From contig NZ_FUZC01000016.1 in the NCBI RefSeq assembly GCF_900168115.1, forward strand, positions 1-64,000: a stretch of DNA of 64,000 nt. The letters are read 5' to 3'. Below, one piece after another: positions 4,785 to 11,638 of the stretch. The translations under genes were made by a program, and so were the position numbers. Position 1 is the first letter of the stretch, and each line of letters opens with the position of its first letter. The notes below the pieces were generated by a model. That model saw only the letters and a list, made by a program, of their open reading frames with translations, made no database searches and was not told where the DNA came from. This stretch comes from Salegentibacter salinarum. Its GTDB lineage: Bacteria > Bacteroidota > Bacteroidia > Flavobacteriales > Flavobacteriaceae.

Positions 4785-7154
4785 TTAAATATCGAAAACA
4801 GTAGATTTATATCCTTTGCTCCAGGAGCGCTCTTTAGCTTCACCATATCCGTAGCCATAATTATTGCCATAACCCAAATGGGCTTTAGACACGTGATTGA
4901 GAATAAATGCAATCTTAGAAAATTTTTCTTGTTCTTTTGCTCGCTGCGGAAATTCAAGTAATTCCTTATCTGTAAATCCCGCTTTTACTATATATAAAAC
5001 TATATCAGCAAACTTGGTAAGTAAAAATGTATCTGCTACTAGCAATGATGGAGCTGTATCTATAACAATATAATCATAATCTTTTTGCATGTATTCAATT
5101 AAAACACCCATTTTTTCCGTTTTAAGCAGCTCGTAAGGATTTGGGGGATAGTTTCCACTTAAAAGAATATCTAAATGAGCATTCAAGCTTGATTTCTGAA
5201 TTAGACAGTCCAAAGTTAAAGTATCATCTGCCAGATAATCGCATAAACCTAGTTTTTGACTTTTATTTATCACAAATGGCTGAAGTTTAGAGTTTCTCAA
5301 ATCTCCACCAATCAGTAAAACTTTCTTTGAGGTATTTGCAAGCGTAATAGAAAGATTAATTGAGGTAAATGTCTTTCCTTCTCCTTTAATTGTAGAGGTT
5401 ACTAAAAATGTAATACCCGAATTCTTATTTTTTTTAGTTATAAGTAGGTACTGTAAATTCGTTGTTAGAATTCTAAATGCTTCTGCCAGAACAGATCGAT
5501 CATTTGATTTAATAAGTTTTAATTTTTGCTTCATTTTTGGAATTTCACCCACCAATGGTATATTTGAAGCCATACTTTCAATATCTACTCGCTTTCTTAT
5601 CTTATTATCAAGAAGACCAGTTATATAGATTAATGAAAAAGGTATGAATAAACCTAAAATAAATGTTCCCATATATACACTTCTGGAATTAGGAGAAATG
5701 GGATAATCGCTAAAATATGCGCGATCTACTATTTTTGCCTTAGGTTCGGTTATGGCCATAGCCAACGAATTTTCTTCTCTTTTTTGCAATAAGAACAAAT
5801 ACAAAGTTTCTTTAATACTCTGTTGTCGTTCTATCCCCCTATACTGGAGTTCTTTTGTGGGAACTGAATAAATTTTAGAACCAATACTGGACGCCTGTCT
5901 TTGAATATCTTCTTGTGAAATTAAAAGATTTGATCTGGCTCGGTTTAGACTTTGTACCACATTGGCTTTGATTTGATCTATTTGACTGTTCAATTTTATT
6001 ACCATTGGGTTTTTTTCACTGGACCCAGCCAAAAGCCTGTTTCGATCTAATATAAGAGAATTGTATTCATCAATTTGATCGTTGACTCCACCTTCTGACA
6101 GACCTAAATTAGATGGTAAAAGATTCCCATCAGAGTTTGAAGAAATATATTCCAACATTGCGTTGGAAAGCTCCAGTTGTGTGCCAATCTCCTGTCTTTT
6201 TTTATTATAATCACTCGCATTCTGTATAAACATTTGAGATTCTGCGTGTATATCTGTAAGTTGATTTTGTTGTTTGAAAATTTTCTTTCCGGTTTCAACT
6301 GAATCCAGTTCCTCATTGATAATTGCCAGGCGTTCATTTATAAAATCAAATGTATTTCCGGCTATTAGGTTTTTATCTTCTATCGCCGATCTGTTGAACT
6401 CCATAATTAATTGATCTAAAATATCTCGTGCTTTTTCTTTTACCGGATCGGTAAGTTCAATTCCAATCAAGAGGGAATTTTCGTCCGCCTGGGTAAAATT
6501 TATTTTGTTGCGATAATTGGCAGCTATTTTATTTATTTCTGAAAATTGAACTATGGTTTTACCCTCATAATCTCTATTATTTTCCCGGGGGCGAATTATT
6601 ATTTGTGCAAACCCTAGATCTATCGTGTTACCTGGCTCCTCCTCTTTAATCCTTCCTGTTTGTAGATTTTTAATCTTGTATATCTTATTGGAAGATCTCC
6701 AAACTTCAAACCTGCCTCCACCATTTTGTTTCAGAAGATTTTCATCAAAGCCCATGACGTGGATTGAAAAAGGAACGTTCTCATAAAGTTCAATATCATT
6801 GAACTCGCCCTCTATATAATATTGAATATATAAATTCAAGGACCTAACCACCTCATTCATTAACCGTCTCGACCGTAAAATACCCAGGTCGTTTTCTATA
6901 CTTTTAGTCCCCGCAGTACTCATAATTCCCAGGTCTTTAAAGATTACAGATTCAGAATTTTTGGAAGAATCATCTTTAAGAATAATTTGGGTCTTGGCAA
7001 GATATTGAGGTGTAGTATATCTTAGATATGTATAACCTGCCGCACCGCAAATAATAATGCATAGTATAAACCAGGGCCATTTTTTTAAGTATTTAGTGAT
7101 CTCCTTTCTCATATTGATCTTATCCATATGAGCTTTATTGATATTGTTTTCCAT
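4785..7154 (-). CDS. Wzc-like polysaccharide co-polymerase with C-terminal tyrosine autokinase
   Basis: This 789-aa inner-membrane protein controls chain length and export of the polysaccharide. A Wzz-type segment begins at the N-terminus, with a first membrane helix at about 26-45 and a second at about 491-512. Between them lies a long coiled-coil periplasmic part, and the segment before the second helix fits the GNVR domain. The cytoplasmic BY-kinase follows: Walker A GEGKT near residue 590, Walker A-prime as LLIGGDLR near 611, and Walker B IVIDTAP. The A-prime motif has Gly where Wzc of E. coli has Asp, which I recall as common in Bacteroidota homologues. The C-terminus carries a tyrosine cluster (LGYGNNYGYGYG), the expected autophosphorylation site. 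It lies 8 bp after the wza-like gene and is the last gene of the cluster. Confident at family level. Confidence 0.95.
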   Translation of the reverse strand: MENNINKAHMDKINMRKEITKYLKKWPWFILCIIICGAAGYTYLRYTTPQYLAKTQIILKDDSSKNSESVIFKDLGIMSTAGTKSIENDLGILRSRRLMNEVVRSLNLYIQYYIEGEFNDIELYENVPFSIHVMGFDENLLKQNGGGRFEVWRSSNKIYKIKNLQTGRIKEEEPGNTIDLGFAQIIIRPRENNRDYEGKTIVQFSEINKIAANYRNKINFTQADENSLLIGIELTDPVKEKARDILDQLIMEFNRSAIEDKNLIAGNTFDFINERLAIINEELDSVETGKKIFKQQNQLTDIHAESQMFIQNASDYNKKRQEIGTQLELSNAMLEYISSNSDGNLLPSNLGLSEGGVNDQIDEYNSLILDRNRLLAGSSEKNPMVIKLNSQIDQIKANVVQSLNRARSNLLISQEDIQRQASSIGSKIYSVPTKELQYRGIERQQSIKETLYLFLLQKREENSLAMAITEPKAKIVDRAYFSDYPISPNSRSVYMGTFILGLFIPFSLIYITGLLDNKIRKRVDIESMASNIPLVGEIPKMKQKLKLIKSNDRSVLAEAFRILTTNLQYLLITKKNKNSGITFLVTSTIKGEGKTFTSINLSITLANTSKKVLLIGGDLRNSKLQPFVINKSQKLGLCDYLADDTLTLDCLIQKSSLNAHLDILLSGNYPPNPYELLKTEKMGVLIEYMQKDYDYIVIDTAPSLLVADTFLLTKFADIVLYIVKAGFTDKELLEFPQRAKEQEKFSKIAFILNHVSKAHLGYGNNYGYGYGEAKERSWSKGYKSTVFDI

Positions 7155-7162
7155 AACCAGAC

Positions 7163-7942
7163 TTATTTGGTGATTAAGATAATGAGTGAGGCAATTACAG
7201 ATATAATAGATAGGTAAGTTGAAGCTAAGCCGGTAGAACCCGCTGACTGCCTTCTTGTTCCTCGTGGTTCAACATAAATAACATCGTTTTGTCTTAAATA
7301 ATAATGGGGGTTATTGACCACCCCGGCATCGGTAAGATCAAGATAAGCATACGTTTTATGATCTCCATCTTCTCCCATTACAAGAATATTTTTTCTTTGT
7401 CCGAAAATGGTAAGATCACCGGCCATACCTAAAGCTTTGGTTATACTTATGTGATCATCATCAATAAAAAATGTCCCGGGGTTCTTCACTTCGCCTAAAA
7501 CGGTAATTTGAAAATTTAAAATCCGTACATTCACTATTGGATCCTTTACATATTCAGCAATTAAATCCTGTATTTTCTTCGCCAGTTGTATGTTGGTATA
7601 ACCTTCTACCTCGAGTTCTCCTATAACAGGAAAAACTATGGTACCTTCATCTGAAACAAGATAGGTTTCAAGTTCTACTTCTCCCATTATCCTGTCCTGA
7701 GAGGTAATAGATTTGGTAAGGTTAAATGGTAAAGCTGCTTCCTGTTCTGGTGCCGAAACTCGAATAGTAAGCACATCATCTGGCTGGATTTCCAGATTAT
7801 TCCCAGATCGTTTCGCTTCATTTTTTCTTAATTGTTCTATCTCCTGAAAGTAAACCATCTCTTTTCTAGAAACGCAGGAATAAAGTAATATGCATAATAT
7901 ACCAGACAGCAAAAGCCGCTTGAGAGTAGAATTGAATTTCAT
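7163..7942 (-). CDS. Wza-like outer-membrane polysaccharide export lipoprotein
   Basis: The 259-aa product belongs to the poly_export/SLBB family that forms the outer-membrane channel for capsule or exopolysaccharide. A lipoprotein signal ends in LLYSC, with Cys23 as the lipidation site. The export domain is at about 45-140 (IQPDDVLTIRVSAP, VSDEGTIVFPVIGELEVEG). An SLBB domain follows (ITVLGEVKNPGTF). A hydrophobic helix at about 238-258 ends the chain, matching the C-terminal transmembrane helix by which Wza crosses the outer membrane. It is shorter than E. coli Wza (about 380 aa), the usual size in this phylum. It is directly upstream of the wzc-like gene and about 35 bp downstream of the wcaJ-like gene, so the three assembly genes form one unit. 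Confidence 0.93.
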   Translation of the reverse strand: MKFNSTLKRLLLSGILCILLYSCVSRKEMVYFQEIEQLRKNEAKRSGNNLEIQPDDVLTIRVSAPEQEAALPFNLTKSITSQDRIMGEVELETYLVSDEGTIVFPVIGELEVEGYTNIQLAKKIQDLIAEYVKDPIVNVRILNFQITVLGEVKNPGTFFIDDDHISITKALGMAGDLTIFGQRKNILVMGEDGDHKTYAYLDLTDAGVVNNPHYYLRQNDVIYVEPRGTRRQSAGSTGLASTYLSIISVIASLIILITK

Positions 7943-7977: not shown

Positions 7978-9330
7978 TTAGAAGGCCTTTTCATCACCCA
8001 ACACGGCATTATAAATGGTTTGGTAGATGATTTTAAAATCCATCAAAGGAGTCCATTTTTCGAGATAAAAAATATCAAACCTTGTTCTGTTAATAATATC
8101 TGATTTACAGGAGATTTCTCCTCTATAGCCCTTAATTTGTGCCAGTCCTGTAATTCCGGGTTTTGTAAAGTGTCTAACCAGGTACTTATCAACAGTTCCC
8201 GCATATTCCAAAGTATGAGTTTCCATATGTGGGCGCGGTCCAACCACACTCATTTCCCCTTTTAGCACATTTATAAATTGGGGTAATTCATCAATACTAG
8301 TTTTTCTTAATATCCTGCCGAGTTTGGTAACACGCGGATCATTTCGGCTACACATTCTTTCATTAGCCAATTTATTCACCGCCATAGATCTGAACTTATA
8401 ACACCAAAATGGTTTTTTATTGTAACCGTGTCTAAGCTGTTTAAAAAATAATGGCCCCTTTGATTCAATCTTCATCAAAATAAAAACCAGTGGTATAAGC
8501 CAGGATAGTATAAAGACTATAACGAAAATGGAAAATAGGACATCGAAAATGCGTTTTCCGTATTTAGCATAATTCTTTTCCAAAGGGGATTTCCTTAAAT
8601 TTAAAACCGGAACGGTGCCAAACAACTCAACATTCATTGAACGGGTAAAAATTTCCTTGTTATCAGGTATTAATTTGAGGTGCTTAAGGTTATTATCCGC
8701 AAAAGATATTAAACGGTTTAGCTGTTCATTAGAAAGTTGAGAAACTATACAGTAAATTTCATCAATGTTATTCTTCAAAATAAAATCATAGCAAGATTCC
8801 ACATTTCCCAGGTAATCTTTGTTATCAGAACTTTTGTTATGAAAAAAACCTTTATACCTATAACCAAAATCGGGTTCATCAAAAACTTTTCTGATTATTC
8901 CCATATTTTTATCATTTCCCACTATTACCACATTTTGGTAATTTCCTCCCTCTAAACGATAGAGCCGTCTAACGGAAAAGAAGAACCACCGATAAAATGT
9001 TAATATTAATAGGAGAAATACAAGGGTAAATACCTGGTACTCTATTACCAGTTCCAATTTCAGAAATGCAAACACTGAAAAGTACGCTAAACAGAATAAT
9101 AGGTAATGACGAAGAAACTTATTGAATTTGGTTCTAAACCGCTCCTTCCTTTCTACAACATAAAAATTTAGACAAAGGGCAGATAATATCCAGGCTAAAT
9201 TGAAACCTATAATAGCCAGAATATTAGAATAGAATTCAGGATTTAATAAATGTAAAAAAACATTTATTATTACTAAATGTGCCAATAATGAAAAGGGCAT
9301 TATAAAAGGAGACCATTTCATTTTATTCAT
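7978..9330 (-). CDS. WcaJ-like undecaprenyl-phosphate sugar phosphotransferase (initiating transferase)
   Basis: This 450-aa polytopic enzyme starts the repeat unit by moving a sugar-1-phosphate, often glucose, from a UDP-sugar to undecaprenyl phosphate. The N-terminal half has four or so membrane helices and a nucleotide-binding-like fold (NVVIVGNDKNMG near 130-145). The C-terminal catalytic part from about 255 shows the hallmarks of the bacterial sugar transferase family: KRIFDVLFS, PLFFKQLRHG, CYKFRSM, SIDELPQFINVLKGEMSVVG and the PRPH motif, then KPGITGLAQIKGYRG. The sugar specificity cannot be read from sequence. It sits between a family 2 glycosyltransferase gene and the wza-like gene. 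Its first 60 residues resemble the separate 61-aa peptide encoded at 10199-10384. Confidence 0.95.
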   Translation of the reverse strand: MNKMKWSPFIMPFSLLAHLVIINVFLHLLNPEFYSNILAIIGFNLAWILSALCLNFYVVERKERFRTKFNKFLRHYLLFCLAYFSVFAFLKLELVIEYQVFTLVFLLLILTFYRWFFFSVRRLYRLEGGNYQNVVIVGNDKNMGIIRKVFDEPDFGYRYKGFFHNKSSDNKDYLGNVESCYDFILKNNIDEIYCIVSQLSNEQLNRLISFADNNLKHLKLIPDNKEIFTRSMNVELFGTVPVLNLRKSPLEKNYAKYGKRIFDVLFSIFVIVFILSWLIPLVFILMKIESKGPLFFKQLRHGYNKKPFWCYKFRSMAVNKLANERMCSRNDPRVTKLGRILRKTSIDELPQFINVLKGEMSVVGPRPHMETHTLEYAGTVDKYLVRHFTKPGITGLAQIKGYRGEISCKSDIINRTRFDIFYLEKWTPLMDFKIIYQTIYNAVLGDEKAF

Positions 9331-9373
9331 ATTTATATTGAAAAATGTAACCTAGCGGAATACAAATTATCTT

Positions 9374-10153
9374 TTAGGCTTTTGGAAAAATGCTAGTTAA
9401 ACTACGGAACTGAGGAATTAAATACTGGGGGACTTTACGCCCAATTTTGCAGAAAAGGGTAAAAAAACCACTTAACCTATTGAGCCGAATAATCCTTAAA
9501 TCTTCTTTAGATTTCTTAATTTGTAATTTCATTGAAGTACTTAATCCGCCCAGACGCATTTTAACTACCCATTCATTAAGGAAGTACTTTTTTATATCAT
9601 CATTTTGAAACCACCTCAATGAAATTTCGTAATCGCTTGCTATCGTATACCCAGAATTATACATTCCATATATTTGAAAAACCTCTTTCCGAACAAAAAT
9701 GGTAGTATGCAGGGGTATCCATCCAAAAAACAGAAATCTTTTATTGAATGGTTTGGAAGAATACATTCGTTTAACTTTTTCTGGATTTTTTTGATCTACA
9801 AAAAGTCCTTTCGCATACACGAGATCTGCATTTGATATTTTAAATGCCTCTACCACTTTTTTAATCGTATCTGCCTCGTAAAAAAAATCGTCCGAATTGA
9901 GGATGCCTATTAAATCTCCTGTCGCATTTTTTATTCCCTTGTTTAAAGCATCAAAAATACCCTCGTCTTTTTCCGAAATATAATATCCCAATTTATCCTG
10001 ATATTTTTCGACTTCCAGTTGCGTACCATCATTAGAACCACCATCTATCACAAGGTGCTCTATATCATCATAACTCTGATTCAAAACTGACTCAATACAT
10101 TCCGCAATGCAATATTGCCTGTTGTAAACAATGGTAATTATTGAAATTCTCAT
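9374..10153 (-). CDS. Family 2 glycosyltransferase (WcaE/WcaA-like)
   Basis: The 259-aa cytoplasmic enzyme has a GT-A fold opening with ISIITIVYNRQ and the sequence VIDGGSNDGT, both typical of family 2. The metal- and nucleotide-binding DxD motif is LNSDDFF near residue 90. The pattern DEGIFDALNKGI resembles colanic-acid-type transferases that act early in repeat-unit assembly. No membrane helix is visible. It lies 43 bp upstream of the wcaJ-like gene in the same direction, so it may add the second sugar after the initiating one; this is inference from position. Donor and acceptor are unknown. Confidence 0.9.
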   Translation of the reverse strand: MRISIITIVYNRQYCIAECIESVLNQSYDDIEHLVIDGGSNDGTQLEVEKYQDKLGYYISEKDEGIFDALNKGIKNATGDLIGILNSDDFFYEADTIKKVVEAFKISNADLVYAKGLFVDQKNPEKVKRMYSSKPFNKRFLFFGWIPLHTTIFVRKEVFQIYGMYNSGYTIASDYEISLRWFQNDDIKKYFLNEWVVKMRLGGLSTSMKLQIKKSKEDLRIIRLNRLSGFFTLFCKIGRKVPQYLIPQFRSLTSIFPKA

Positions 10154-10198
10154 ATTTGAAAAATTAATTAATTAAAATAAAAGAAGAGAAAAAAAGAA

Positions 10199-10384
10199 TT
10201 AGGCTCTTTCATGATTATAAGCCTGTGCCCCTATTAGAACAATAAGTATGACCCATAAAATATTATAGCCCGCAATTATATTTAAATTCATTGCAATTTC
10301 AGAACTTAAAAAAAAGCAGATACTGTCAATTACTATTAAGTGCATAAATGCCGCGAACGATAGTGTTAAAGATGAAGTTTTCAT
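10199..10384 (-). CDS. Small membrane peptide resembling the N-terminus of the WcaJ-like transferase
   Basis: The 61-aa product has two predicted membrane helices (about 8-28 and 34-54) and ends in a charged tail. It aligns over its whole length with residues 5-64 of the WcaJ-like protein encoded at 7978-9330: both begin MKxS, share HL(V/I)I near residue 15, N followed by IxG(F/Y)N and W around 33-44, and end near an ER pair. It has its own ATG and a stop 45 bp before the next gene. It may be a free-standing regulatory or scaffold peptide, or the remnant of a second wcaJ whose remainder was lost; the neighbouring DNA shows no further wcaJ sequence. Function is unknown. Confidence 0.6.
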   Translation of the reverse strand: MKTSSLTLSFAAFMHLIVIDSICFFLSSEIAMNLNIIAGYNILWVILIVLIGAQAYNHERA

Positions 10385-10654
10385 AATTTATATTTTATAC
10401 ATTGATATAGGTGGATTTCTATCGCTAAAAATGGAGTAAGCTGAACTGCCATCTAGGCGTCTTTTATTGGATAGAAGCTACATTGAAGGTGGGGCCTTAC
10501 TTCACAAAAGGCTCAATAAACGTAGGTAGGATATCAGGATATGTCTAAAATATATTAGAAAGTAGAAGTTTGGGAAGGGTACTTTTTTACTGCTCAGGTA
10601 ATGTTATTAATATTATCGTATTTGAATATTGAACAAACATTTTTAAAAAAGTTG
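10385..10654. other. 270-bp gap inside the polysaccharide cluster
   Basis: This is the largest non-coding gap within the cluster. No open frame or clear terminator is present. On the minus strand, a TACGTTTA element near 10520-10527 is one base from the TAnnTTTG consensus, so a secondary promoter for the downstream genes (small peptide to wzc) is possible. A short GCCTT/AAGGC hairpin lies nearby. Neither is strong evidence. Confidence 0.3.
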
Positions 10655-11638
10655 CTATTTAACCAAGTGAAGGGATAAATTTCTTTCTTTTAACGGAGTT
10701 CCATGGTAAATGGCTTCAAAATATTGAATTGTCTTAGATAAACCTTCTTTTAACTGGATTTCTGGTTTCCAACCATTGAGTTTGGCTGTTGCCAAATGAA
10801 TGTCTGGTTGTCTCCTTTGAGGATCGTCCTGGGGAAGTGATTTGAAAATTAATTTTGAATCAGATCCTGTGAGTTCTAAAATATTCTCTGCTAGTTCCAT
10901 CATAGTATATTCCTTCTGGTTGCCAATATTAACGGGACCGGTAAAAGCGTCTTCAGTATTCATCATTCTTATCATGCCCTCTACTAAATCATCTACATAT
11001 TGAAATGATCTGGTTTGACTACCATCCCCAAAAATAGTAATGTCCTCACCTTTTAAAGCTTGCATAATAAAATTGGAAACTACCCTACCGTCATTGGGAT
11101 TCATGTTGGGACCATAAGTATTAAAGATTCTAATGATTTTTATACAAACATCATTTTGTTGATGGTAATCCATAAACAGCGTTTCAGCACAACGTTTACC
11201 TTCATCATAACAAGACCTCGGTCCAATTGGGTTTACATTTCCCCAATAACTTTCTGGTTGGGGGTGTATTTGTGGATCGCCATACACTTCGCTTGTACTG
11301 GCCTGTAAAATTTTGGCTTTAATTCTTTTTGCCAGTCCAAGCATATTTATAGCTCCGATTACTGAAGTTTTGGTAGTTTTTATAGCATTATACTGGTAAT
11401 GAACCGGGCTGGCCGGACAGGCCAGATTGTAAATTTCATCTACCTCTATAAAAAATGGCGTCGTAATATCATGCCTAATAACCTCAAACAAAGGATTCTT
11501 CATTAAGTGAATTATATTTTTTTTACTACCTGTAAAATAGTTATCTAAACAAATTACCTCATTTCCCTCTTTCAACAGTCGTTCACATAGATGGGACCCA
11601 ATAAATCCTGCCCCACCTGTAATTAAAATTCTTTTCAT
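10655..11638 (-). CDS. uxs: UDP-glucuronate decarboxylase (UDP-xylose synthase)
   Basis: This 327-aa extended short-chain dehydrogenase/reductase converts UDP-glucuronate to UDP-xylose using bound NAD. The Rossmann motif GGAGFIG begins at residue 8. The catalytic set is Thr/Ser114-116 (STSE) with Tyr144 and Lys148 (SCYDEGKR). The segments [35 protein letters not shown] and [15 protein letters not shown] are close to the family pattern that separates this enzyme from epimerases. Length is normal for the soluble form. The cluster lacks UDP-glucose dehydrogenase, so the UDP-glucuronate must come from a gene elsewhere. Its presence predicts xylose, or a sugar derived from UDP-xylose, in the polysaccharide. 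Confidence 0.93.

Follow-up and report, generated by a model that had tools for sequence, protein, structure and literature searches.

Large phosphoglycosyl transferases (PGTs) commit undecaprenyl phosphate to a polysaccharide, and roles have been proposed for their DUF and catalytic parts. In the WbaP dimer two four-helix bundles form the central stalk; they are reported to contribute only modestly to the interface, through a limited contact via helix 3, while most of the contact is made by the DUF hairpin (PMC10942596). In rhizobia, ExoX and PsiA, two small proteins of the inner membrane, are reported to act post-transcriptionally on the initiating transferase (PMC3233446), and in Myxococcus the single-domain response regulator EpsW has been modelled in contact with the DUF and catalytic domain of EpsZ (PMC12802240). 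These two reports provide a precedent for post-translational control of PGTs by partner proteins. RmpD of Klebsiella (49-58 aa) binds Wzc and makes chain length more uniform, and it is reported to give no convincing contact with WcaJ (PMC10294653).

The window analyzed here (the whole 64,000-nt stretch of Salegentibacter salinarum DNA) carries on its minus strand, in this order, an SDR gene, a 270-nt gap, a small frame, and GT2, WcaJ, Wza-like, and Wzc-like genes (Table 1). The small frame lies where the earlier note had it and runs from an ATG start to a TAA stop. Its stop codon lies 45 nt from the GT2 start. No remainder of a wcaJ gene follows it, as had been noted, but WcaJ is the second gene downstream and not the third. 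The GT2 protein has WcaE as its nearest NCBIfam model (87.6 bits vs a cut-off of 369.2), the WcaJ lies above the cut-off of TIGR03025, the general EPS transferase model, and the Wza-like protein matches NCBIfam export models below their cut-offs. Against TIGR03023, the NCBI WcaJ model, the same WcaJ falls just under the cut-off (394.7 vs 410.75 bits).

Table 1. Features of the polysaccharide block around the 61-aa frame, with positions in the window
Feature	Positions	Strand	Evidence
Stand-alone predicted membrane hairpin of 61 aa, paralogue of WcaJ TM1-TM2	10199-10384	minus	ORF, eight homologues, AlphaFold2, hhalign
270-nt gap 5′ of the peptide gene, likely the 5′ end of the transcription unit	10385-10654	minus	
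GT2 glycosyltransferase (Glycos_transf_2), constant downstream neighbor	9374-10153	minus	
WcaJ-type large monotopic phosphoglycosyl transferase; four TM helices, CoA_binding_3/DUF, Bac_transf	7978-9330	minus	
Stretch of wcaJ coding TM1-TM2 (residues 1-52 counted from MKW), the paralogous part	9166-9321	minus	
Wza-like polysaccharide export protein, next gene of the block	7163-7942	minus	
Wzc-like chain-length/tyrosine autokinase, last gene of the block	4785-7154	minus	passes TIGR01007
SDR, NAD-dependent epimerase/dehydratase; variable upstream neighbor, outside the constant block	10655-11638	minus	

The peptide is related to the N-terminus of this WcaJ, as the earlier note had proposed. In BLASTP the two share 14 identical and 25 positive positions of 46 (E 1e-7 for the pair), and in a search of its own genome the peptide finds itself and then the WcaJ N-terminus (E 7.9e-4), with no other match below 0.01 and the third at 0.37. 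A profile of the nine peptides described below aligns with a profile of 18 WcaJs (hhalign, 97.8% probability, E 1e-12), peptide residues 1-52 to WcaJ residues 1-52; this alignment spans TM1, the loop, and TM2, and the likeness ends beyond TM2. The match claimed earlier, end to end with WcaJ residues 5-64, therefore reflects a real likeness but is too long, since the local alignment stops at peptide residue 46 and the profile alignment at 52. H15, L16, N41, and W44 are common to all nine peptides and present in 47, 52, 52, and 54, respectively, of 54 WcaJs; together with Y40 they are the conserved residues common to peptide and WcaJ, and all lie within the two helices. The spaced HL, N, and W that had been singled out are found in both proteins. 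At position 20 of TM1 the two groups differ, with D in eight of the nine peptides (N in that of genome G427) and N in 53 of the 54 WcaJs. The sole WcaJ with D20, the residue typical of the stand-alone peptides, is L102 of genome G356. Two features of WcaJ, its TPETY-type loop motif and the basic stretch that follows TM2, were not seen in the nine peptides. For the window peptide Pfam gives nothing up to E 1 and NCBIfam nothing up to E 0.1, and the other members give only weak Pfam matches, to five unrelated names (best E 0.0039). Thus, at 61 aa, the window peptide lacks recognizable Bac_transf and DUF/CoA_binding_3 domains of the large PGTs, and by the profile comparison it has TM1-TM2 of their four-helix bundle.

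The peptide is predicted to be a two-helix membrane protein. Hydropathy gives two hydrophobic segments of membrane length (19 residues) in all nine members, whose N-termini carry one or two basic residues, and AlphaFold2, run on the nine-row alignment, models helices at 2-26 and 30-60 (mean pLDDT 75, pTM 0.46). A fold search with the hairpin model returned nothing at E ≤0.001, which is unsurprising for a pair of helices, and a profile search of PDB sequences gave no match up to E 1. In the model of the window WcaJ, helices at 4-26, 34-51, 66-87, and 93-123 lie ahead of the DUF; the model is of middling quality (mean pLDDT 66) and was left out of contact analysis. Its structural alignments match mostly in the DUF region, and the best solved relatives of the protein are WbaP and PglC.

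The earlier note had called the peptide an orphan and had suggested a search of related clusters for a conserved small frame at the same position. Such a frame, intact, is found in nine genomes including that of the window, so the peptide is no orphan: stand-alone homologues of 59-66 aa lie directly before GT2 and wcaJ in two Salegentibacter genomes, six genomes of a second genus (that of G139), and Salinimicrobium sp. TH3. In S. tibetensis (contig NZ_JAIQZA010000004.1) a 61-aa frame lies between SDR and GT2 genes, and the WcaJ that comes next is 73% identical to that of the window. The peptides of the other peptide-GT2-WcaJ loci have 61 (G139), 59 (TH3), 65 (G336), 61 (G425), 65 (G427), 66 (G428), and 60 aa (G429), and the homologues are 24-41% identical to the window copy. 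The peptide-GT2 gap is 10-49 nt across the nine loci, the order peptide-GT2-WcaJ-(Wza)-Wzc is constant, and a Wzc-like gene is present in every one; the gene upstream of the peptide varies, with an SDR match there in five of the nine stretches. G139 (L120) has no Wza match between WcaJ and Wzc, unlike the other eight clusters. Two large proteins lie close to these blocks. In S. tibetensis (L020, 9412-15894) a 2160-aa protein behind the polysaccharide block starts, judged by eye, with a signal-like segment, contains repeats, and ends in a sorting-like one, and in TH3 the peptide gene is immediately preceded by the end of a large protein that looks secreted (L051, 1-1617). It is very probable that this is a real conserved family of small genes, so far from Salegentibacter and close relatives.

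Stand-alone members were sought closely in two genera, some of whose genomes are 61-82% complete. The peptide is present in two of the 15 Salegentibacter genomes, by both profile and single-sequence searches, and in 6 of the 16 genomes of the second genus examined; six other Salegentibacter genomes match the peptide profile only through the N-terminus of a 448-453 aa frame. When GT2 was searched for in the same 31 genomes, it was found in exactly the eight that bear the peptide and in none of the 23 others. The first family search (299 genomes, two-row profile) was read to E 0.001. A later one covered 397 genomes drawn from a larger group, with at most 16 candidates scored per genome, and 46 of these genomes match; the stand-alone members among them are those of G000, G139, and G336, with a relic in G157. 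Its weak short-frame matches in G107, G179, G416, and G104 were left out of inspection; that in G386 is a broken frame with no EPS genes recognized alongside. A gene-order search of 296 genomes matched in seven, G038 and G660 of which were left out of inspection. In the collection of named genomes a scan with WcaJ gave four loci and a scan with the peptide alone gave no match, and tblastn with the window peptide found nothing in the plasmid collection up to E 0.1.

Neither WcaJ nor GT2 is always accompanied by the peptide. Related WcaJ loci without GT2 in front, in S. maritimus (L052) and Gramella sp. AN32 (L053), show no such frame, and none lies within 1.5 kb upstream of the related wcaJ genes without GT2 in G434, G432, G435, and G430. 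GT2 homologues without a peptide, 55-62% identical to the GT2 of the window, occur in the order SDR-GT2-WcaJ (L058), with another PGT (L057 and L062), and followed by an export gene in place of a PGT (L060 and L061). The peptide thus marks one particular module.

The peptide is under clear purifying selection, yet it evolves much faster than its neighbors. In all 36 pairs of the nine peptides pN is smaller than pS, although most pairs are near saturation; in the closest pair, S. tibetensis and G425 (69% identical, unsaturated), pS is 0.47, pN 0.16, and dN/dS 0.25, with 13, 9, and 21 differences at codon positions 1, 2, and 3. Of the 36 pairs, 27 vary most at position 3, and position 2 is the least variable overall. 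A codon model on the GT2+WcaJ tree, in which G427 and G429 are placed by only their first 181 and 216 WcaJ residues, gives omega values of 0.152 (peptide), 0.019 (GT2), and 0.014 (WcaJ). For the peptide, omega=1 is rejected (lnL -1727.96 with omega free vs -1782.61, best of seven kappa values), so the ratio of synonymous to nonsynonymous change, the other check suggested earlier, comes out on the side of a maintained gene. Mean distance is 1.54 for the peptide vs 0.30-0.57 for GT2, Wza, Wzc, and the WcaJ parts. In a tree of the nine peptides and 54 WcaJ N-termini a branch supported at 100/98 sets the peptides apart; with only 66 columns in the alignment and a long branch, the tree does not point to a particular donor WcaJ. 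A different kind of fragment is present in G157, from another genus (L116, C14 164,908-165,075, minus strand). This 55-aa frame is of the WcaJ type in sequence and loop, has N20, and lies 2.4 kb upstream of an intact wcaJ, with no GT2 recognized among same-strand frames of at least 150 aa. It is a genuine recent wcaJ relic or partial duplication, and the nine peptides are unlike it.

The peptide probably serves as a partner, either of WcaJ itself or of the WcaJ-GT2 step. It keeps the packing residues of a half-bundle and little else, so most simply it would bind the WcaJ bundle or itself. We favor a role as a subunit or in coupling, because the peptide gene heads the unit and is accompanied by WcaJ and GT2 in all members found. 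We consider the chance about even that it is a hairpin paralogue of the WcaJ bundle that docks on WcaJ and either tunes it or couples GT2 to it, with WcaJ as the presumed partner. In such a mechanism the peptide would be made together with WcaJ and GT2, insert as a helical hairpin with both ends cytoplasmic, and pack against the WcaJ four-helix bundle through H15, L16, Y40, N41, and W44, replacing or capping one hairpin in the WcaJ dimer. The consequence would be to set the amount of active PGT and/or to hold GT2, putatively the enzyme adding a later sugar, near the Und-PP-sugar product. The possible effects are activation, gating, coupling to GT2, and inhibition.

The WcaJ partners offer a hint of such contact, one that depends on the cut-off. 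In the WcaJs of the nine loci six of seven clade-specific residues (A14, A36, F102, F105, F109, and L120; the seventh is Q195) lie in the TM bundle at a 10% cut-off; in nested control clades 22 of 68 do so. When six non-nested clades serve as controls, the TM enrichment has p 0.04 at 10%, 0.11 at 5%, and 0.36 at 15%. A first pass with an extra sister-group filter had given three positions, all in the bundle; the count of seven comes from an alignment with other MAFFT settings. On an ideal TM4 helix F102, F105, and F109 fall within 60 degrees. The WcaJ that is paired with GT2 in the absence of the peptide (L058, read as L036) does not have A14, F102, F109, or L120 and does have A36 and F105, and other peptide-less WcaJs share A36, F105, and F109 (L029) or A36 (L053). 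Mirror-tree correlations with the peptide (eight genomes, 28 pairs, G139 omitted as it has no Wza match) are 0.11-0.39 (Pearson), the highest being with GT2 (0.39) and not with WcaJ, and the peptide distances are near saturation. The earlier idea of a stand-alone modulator of the initiating transferase thus fits the observations, but the mirror-tree did not single out WcaJ and the residue enrichment shifts with the cut-off. Counted against this mechanism are also the fast evolution of the peptide (24-41% identity, and a high omega next to those of GT2 and WcaJ), more than would suit a tight partner, and the three GT2-PGT pairs without it (L057, L058, and L062), by which it is not generally needed for pairing.

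A bolder version, which we hold only tentatively, is a split and duplicated PGT, in which the half bundle has become a separate obligate subunit of a hetero-oligomeric initiating transferase, WcaJ and the hairpin together building its membrane part, and GT2 is recruited to the complex. If true, the Und-P step would have an assembly line built into it, and the four-helix bundle would gain a function.

It is rather unlikely that the hairpin serves only as a membrane anchor or adaptor that holds an otherwise soluble GT2 near an unregulated WcaJ. The position of the peptide gene directly before GT2 in all nine loci, the co-occurrence of the two in eight of eight genomes of the two genera, and the (low) mirror-tree maximum for GT2 speak for it, but GT2 homologues occur without a peptide beside a PGT (L058, L057, and L062) or an export gene (L060 and L061), and an anchor alone leaves the homology to the WcaJ bundle unexplained. 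Less probable again is that the peptide hinders WcaJ, poisoning its homodimers as a negative control like ExoX. A half-bundle copy could serve as a decoy, and ExoX and PsiA are reported to lower EPS through the initiating transferase (PMC3233446); the peptide shows no sequence kinship with ExoX, and its constant 5′ place in the unit would argue for a constitutive subunit over a titrating inhibitor. We regard a chain-length factor acting on the Wzc-like protein as improbable. The Wzc-like gene is in the block in nine of nine loci, and RmpD is a membrane protein of about this size that binds Wzc and evens chain length (PMC10294653), but it has a single TM helix, at the N-terminus, and a basic C-terminal region, whereas the peptide has two hydrophobic segments in all nine members and is predicted to be a hairpin related to WcaJ.

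There is also very little to recommend a leader peptide or 5′-region element, a reading in which the frame would govern operon expression and the protein as such would not matter. The peptide is the first frame after a gap of 262-472 nt in all nine loci (measured to the nearest same-strand frame of at least 100 codons), beyond which the gene varies. However, a shared k-mer search of the 250 nt upstream in the nine loci gave nothing above shuffled sets, little of that DNA is alignable, Rfam has no match in window positions 9300-10800, and what is conserved is the amino-acid sequence, in agreement with a paralogue of a membrane protein. One of the nine upstream stretches has a Bacteroidota-type -7 box. 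The weakest reading, that the peptide is a functionless relic of a wcaJ duplication (an option raised in the earlier note), has in its favor the homology to a truncated piece, the fast divergence, and the G157 example, but it is rejected as extremely improbable, and could stand only if selection acted on overlapping DNA signals. It is contradicted by a frame that has stayed open in nine genomes although synonymous distances are mostly saturated (in a neutral, AT-rich simulation with 75% of sites redrawn, it stayed open in 0.9% of 20,000 runs), by the constraint described above, by the clade of their own that the peptides form, and by the contrast with G157; the absence of constraint and the loss of the frame in relatives that mark a wcaJ pseudogene were not found.

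The 61-aa gene is a candidate partner or regulator of the first step of sugar-polymer synthesis. A protein that is just half of the four-helix bundle, kept by selection beside the enzyme, would give a natural handle on the role of that bundle. Among the titles and abstract openings of the literature found, in which subscription journals are thinly covered, no stand-alone PGT membrane fragment is named. As a PGT partner the peptide would represent a new and minimal class, without sequence kinship to ExoX to the extent that hhalign shows.

Compared with known systems, the TM1-TM2 hairpin of the peptide is homologous by sequence to the WcaJ/WbaP four-helix bundle (PDB 8t53); unlike the large PGTs it is half a bundle on its own gene, without the DUF and catalytic domain, and it has D20 in place of N20 in eight of nine cases. 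RmpD is like it in being a membrane protein of about 60 aa tied to capsular polysaccharide and unlike it in having one TM helix, a basic C-terminal part, binding to Wzc, and an rmpADC locus (PMC10294653). EpsW resembles the proposed role as a separate partner, that of EpsZ, that sets PGT activity post-translationally (PMC12802240). Both are more distant parallels than ExoX and PsiA (NF052519; SyrA PF11089), repressors of ExoY and PssA, which like the peptide are small membrane proteins encoded near an initiating PGT gene of an EPS cluster. ExoX of S. meliloti, on pSymB, is different in having 98 aa and lying on the strand opposite the PGT frame; the stretch that it adjoins matches the catalytic part of WcaJ and is presumably exoY from its position. 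Used as a control, this ExoX matches both NF052519 (166.5 bits) and SyrA. None of the nine peptides matches SyrA at E 1, the window peptide (the one member scanned) has no match to NF052519 up to E 0.1, and ExoX against the peptide profile gives 1.4% probability over 17 columns in hhalign, which is not significant. ExoX is thus the nearest functional precedent; the peptide is not of the ExoX family, but by analogy it may work likewise.
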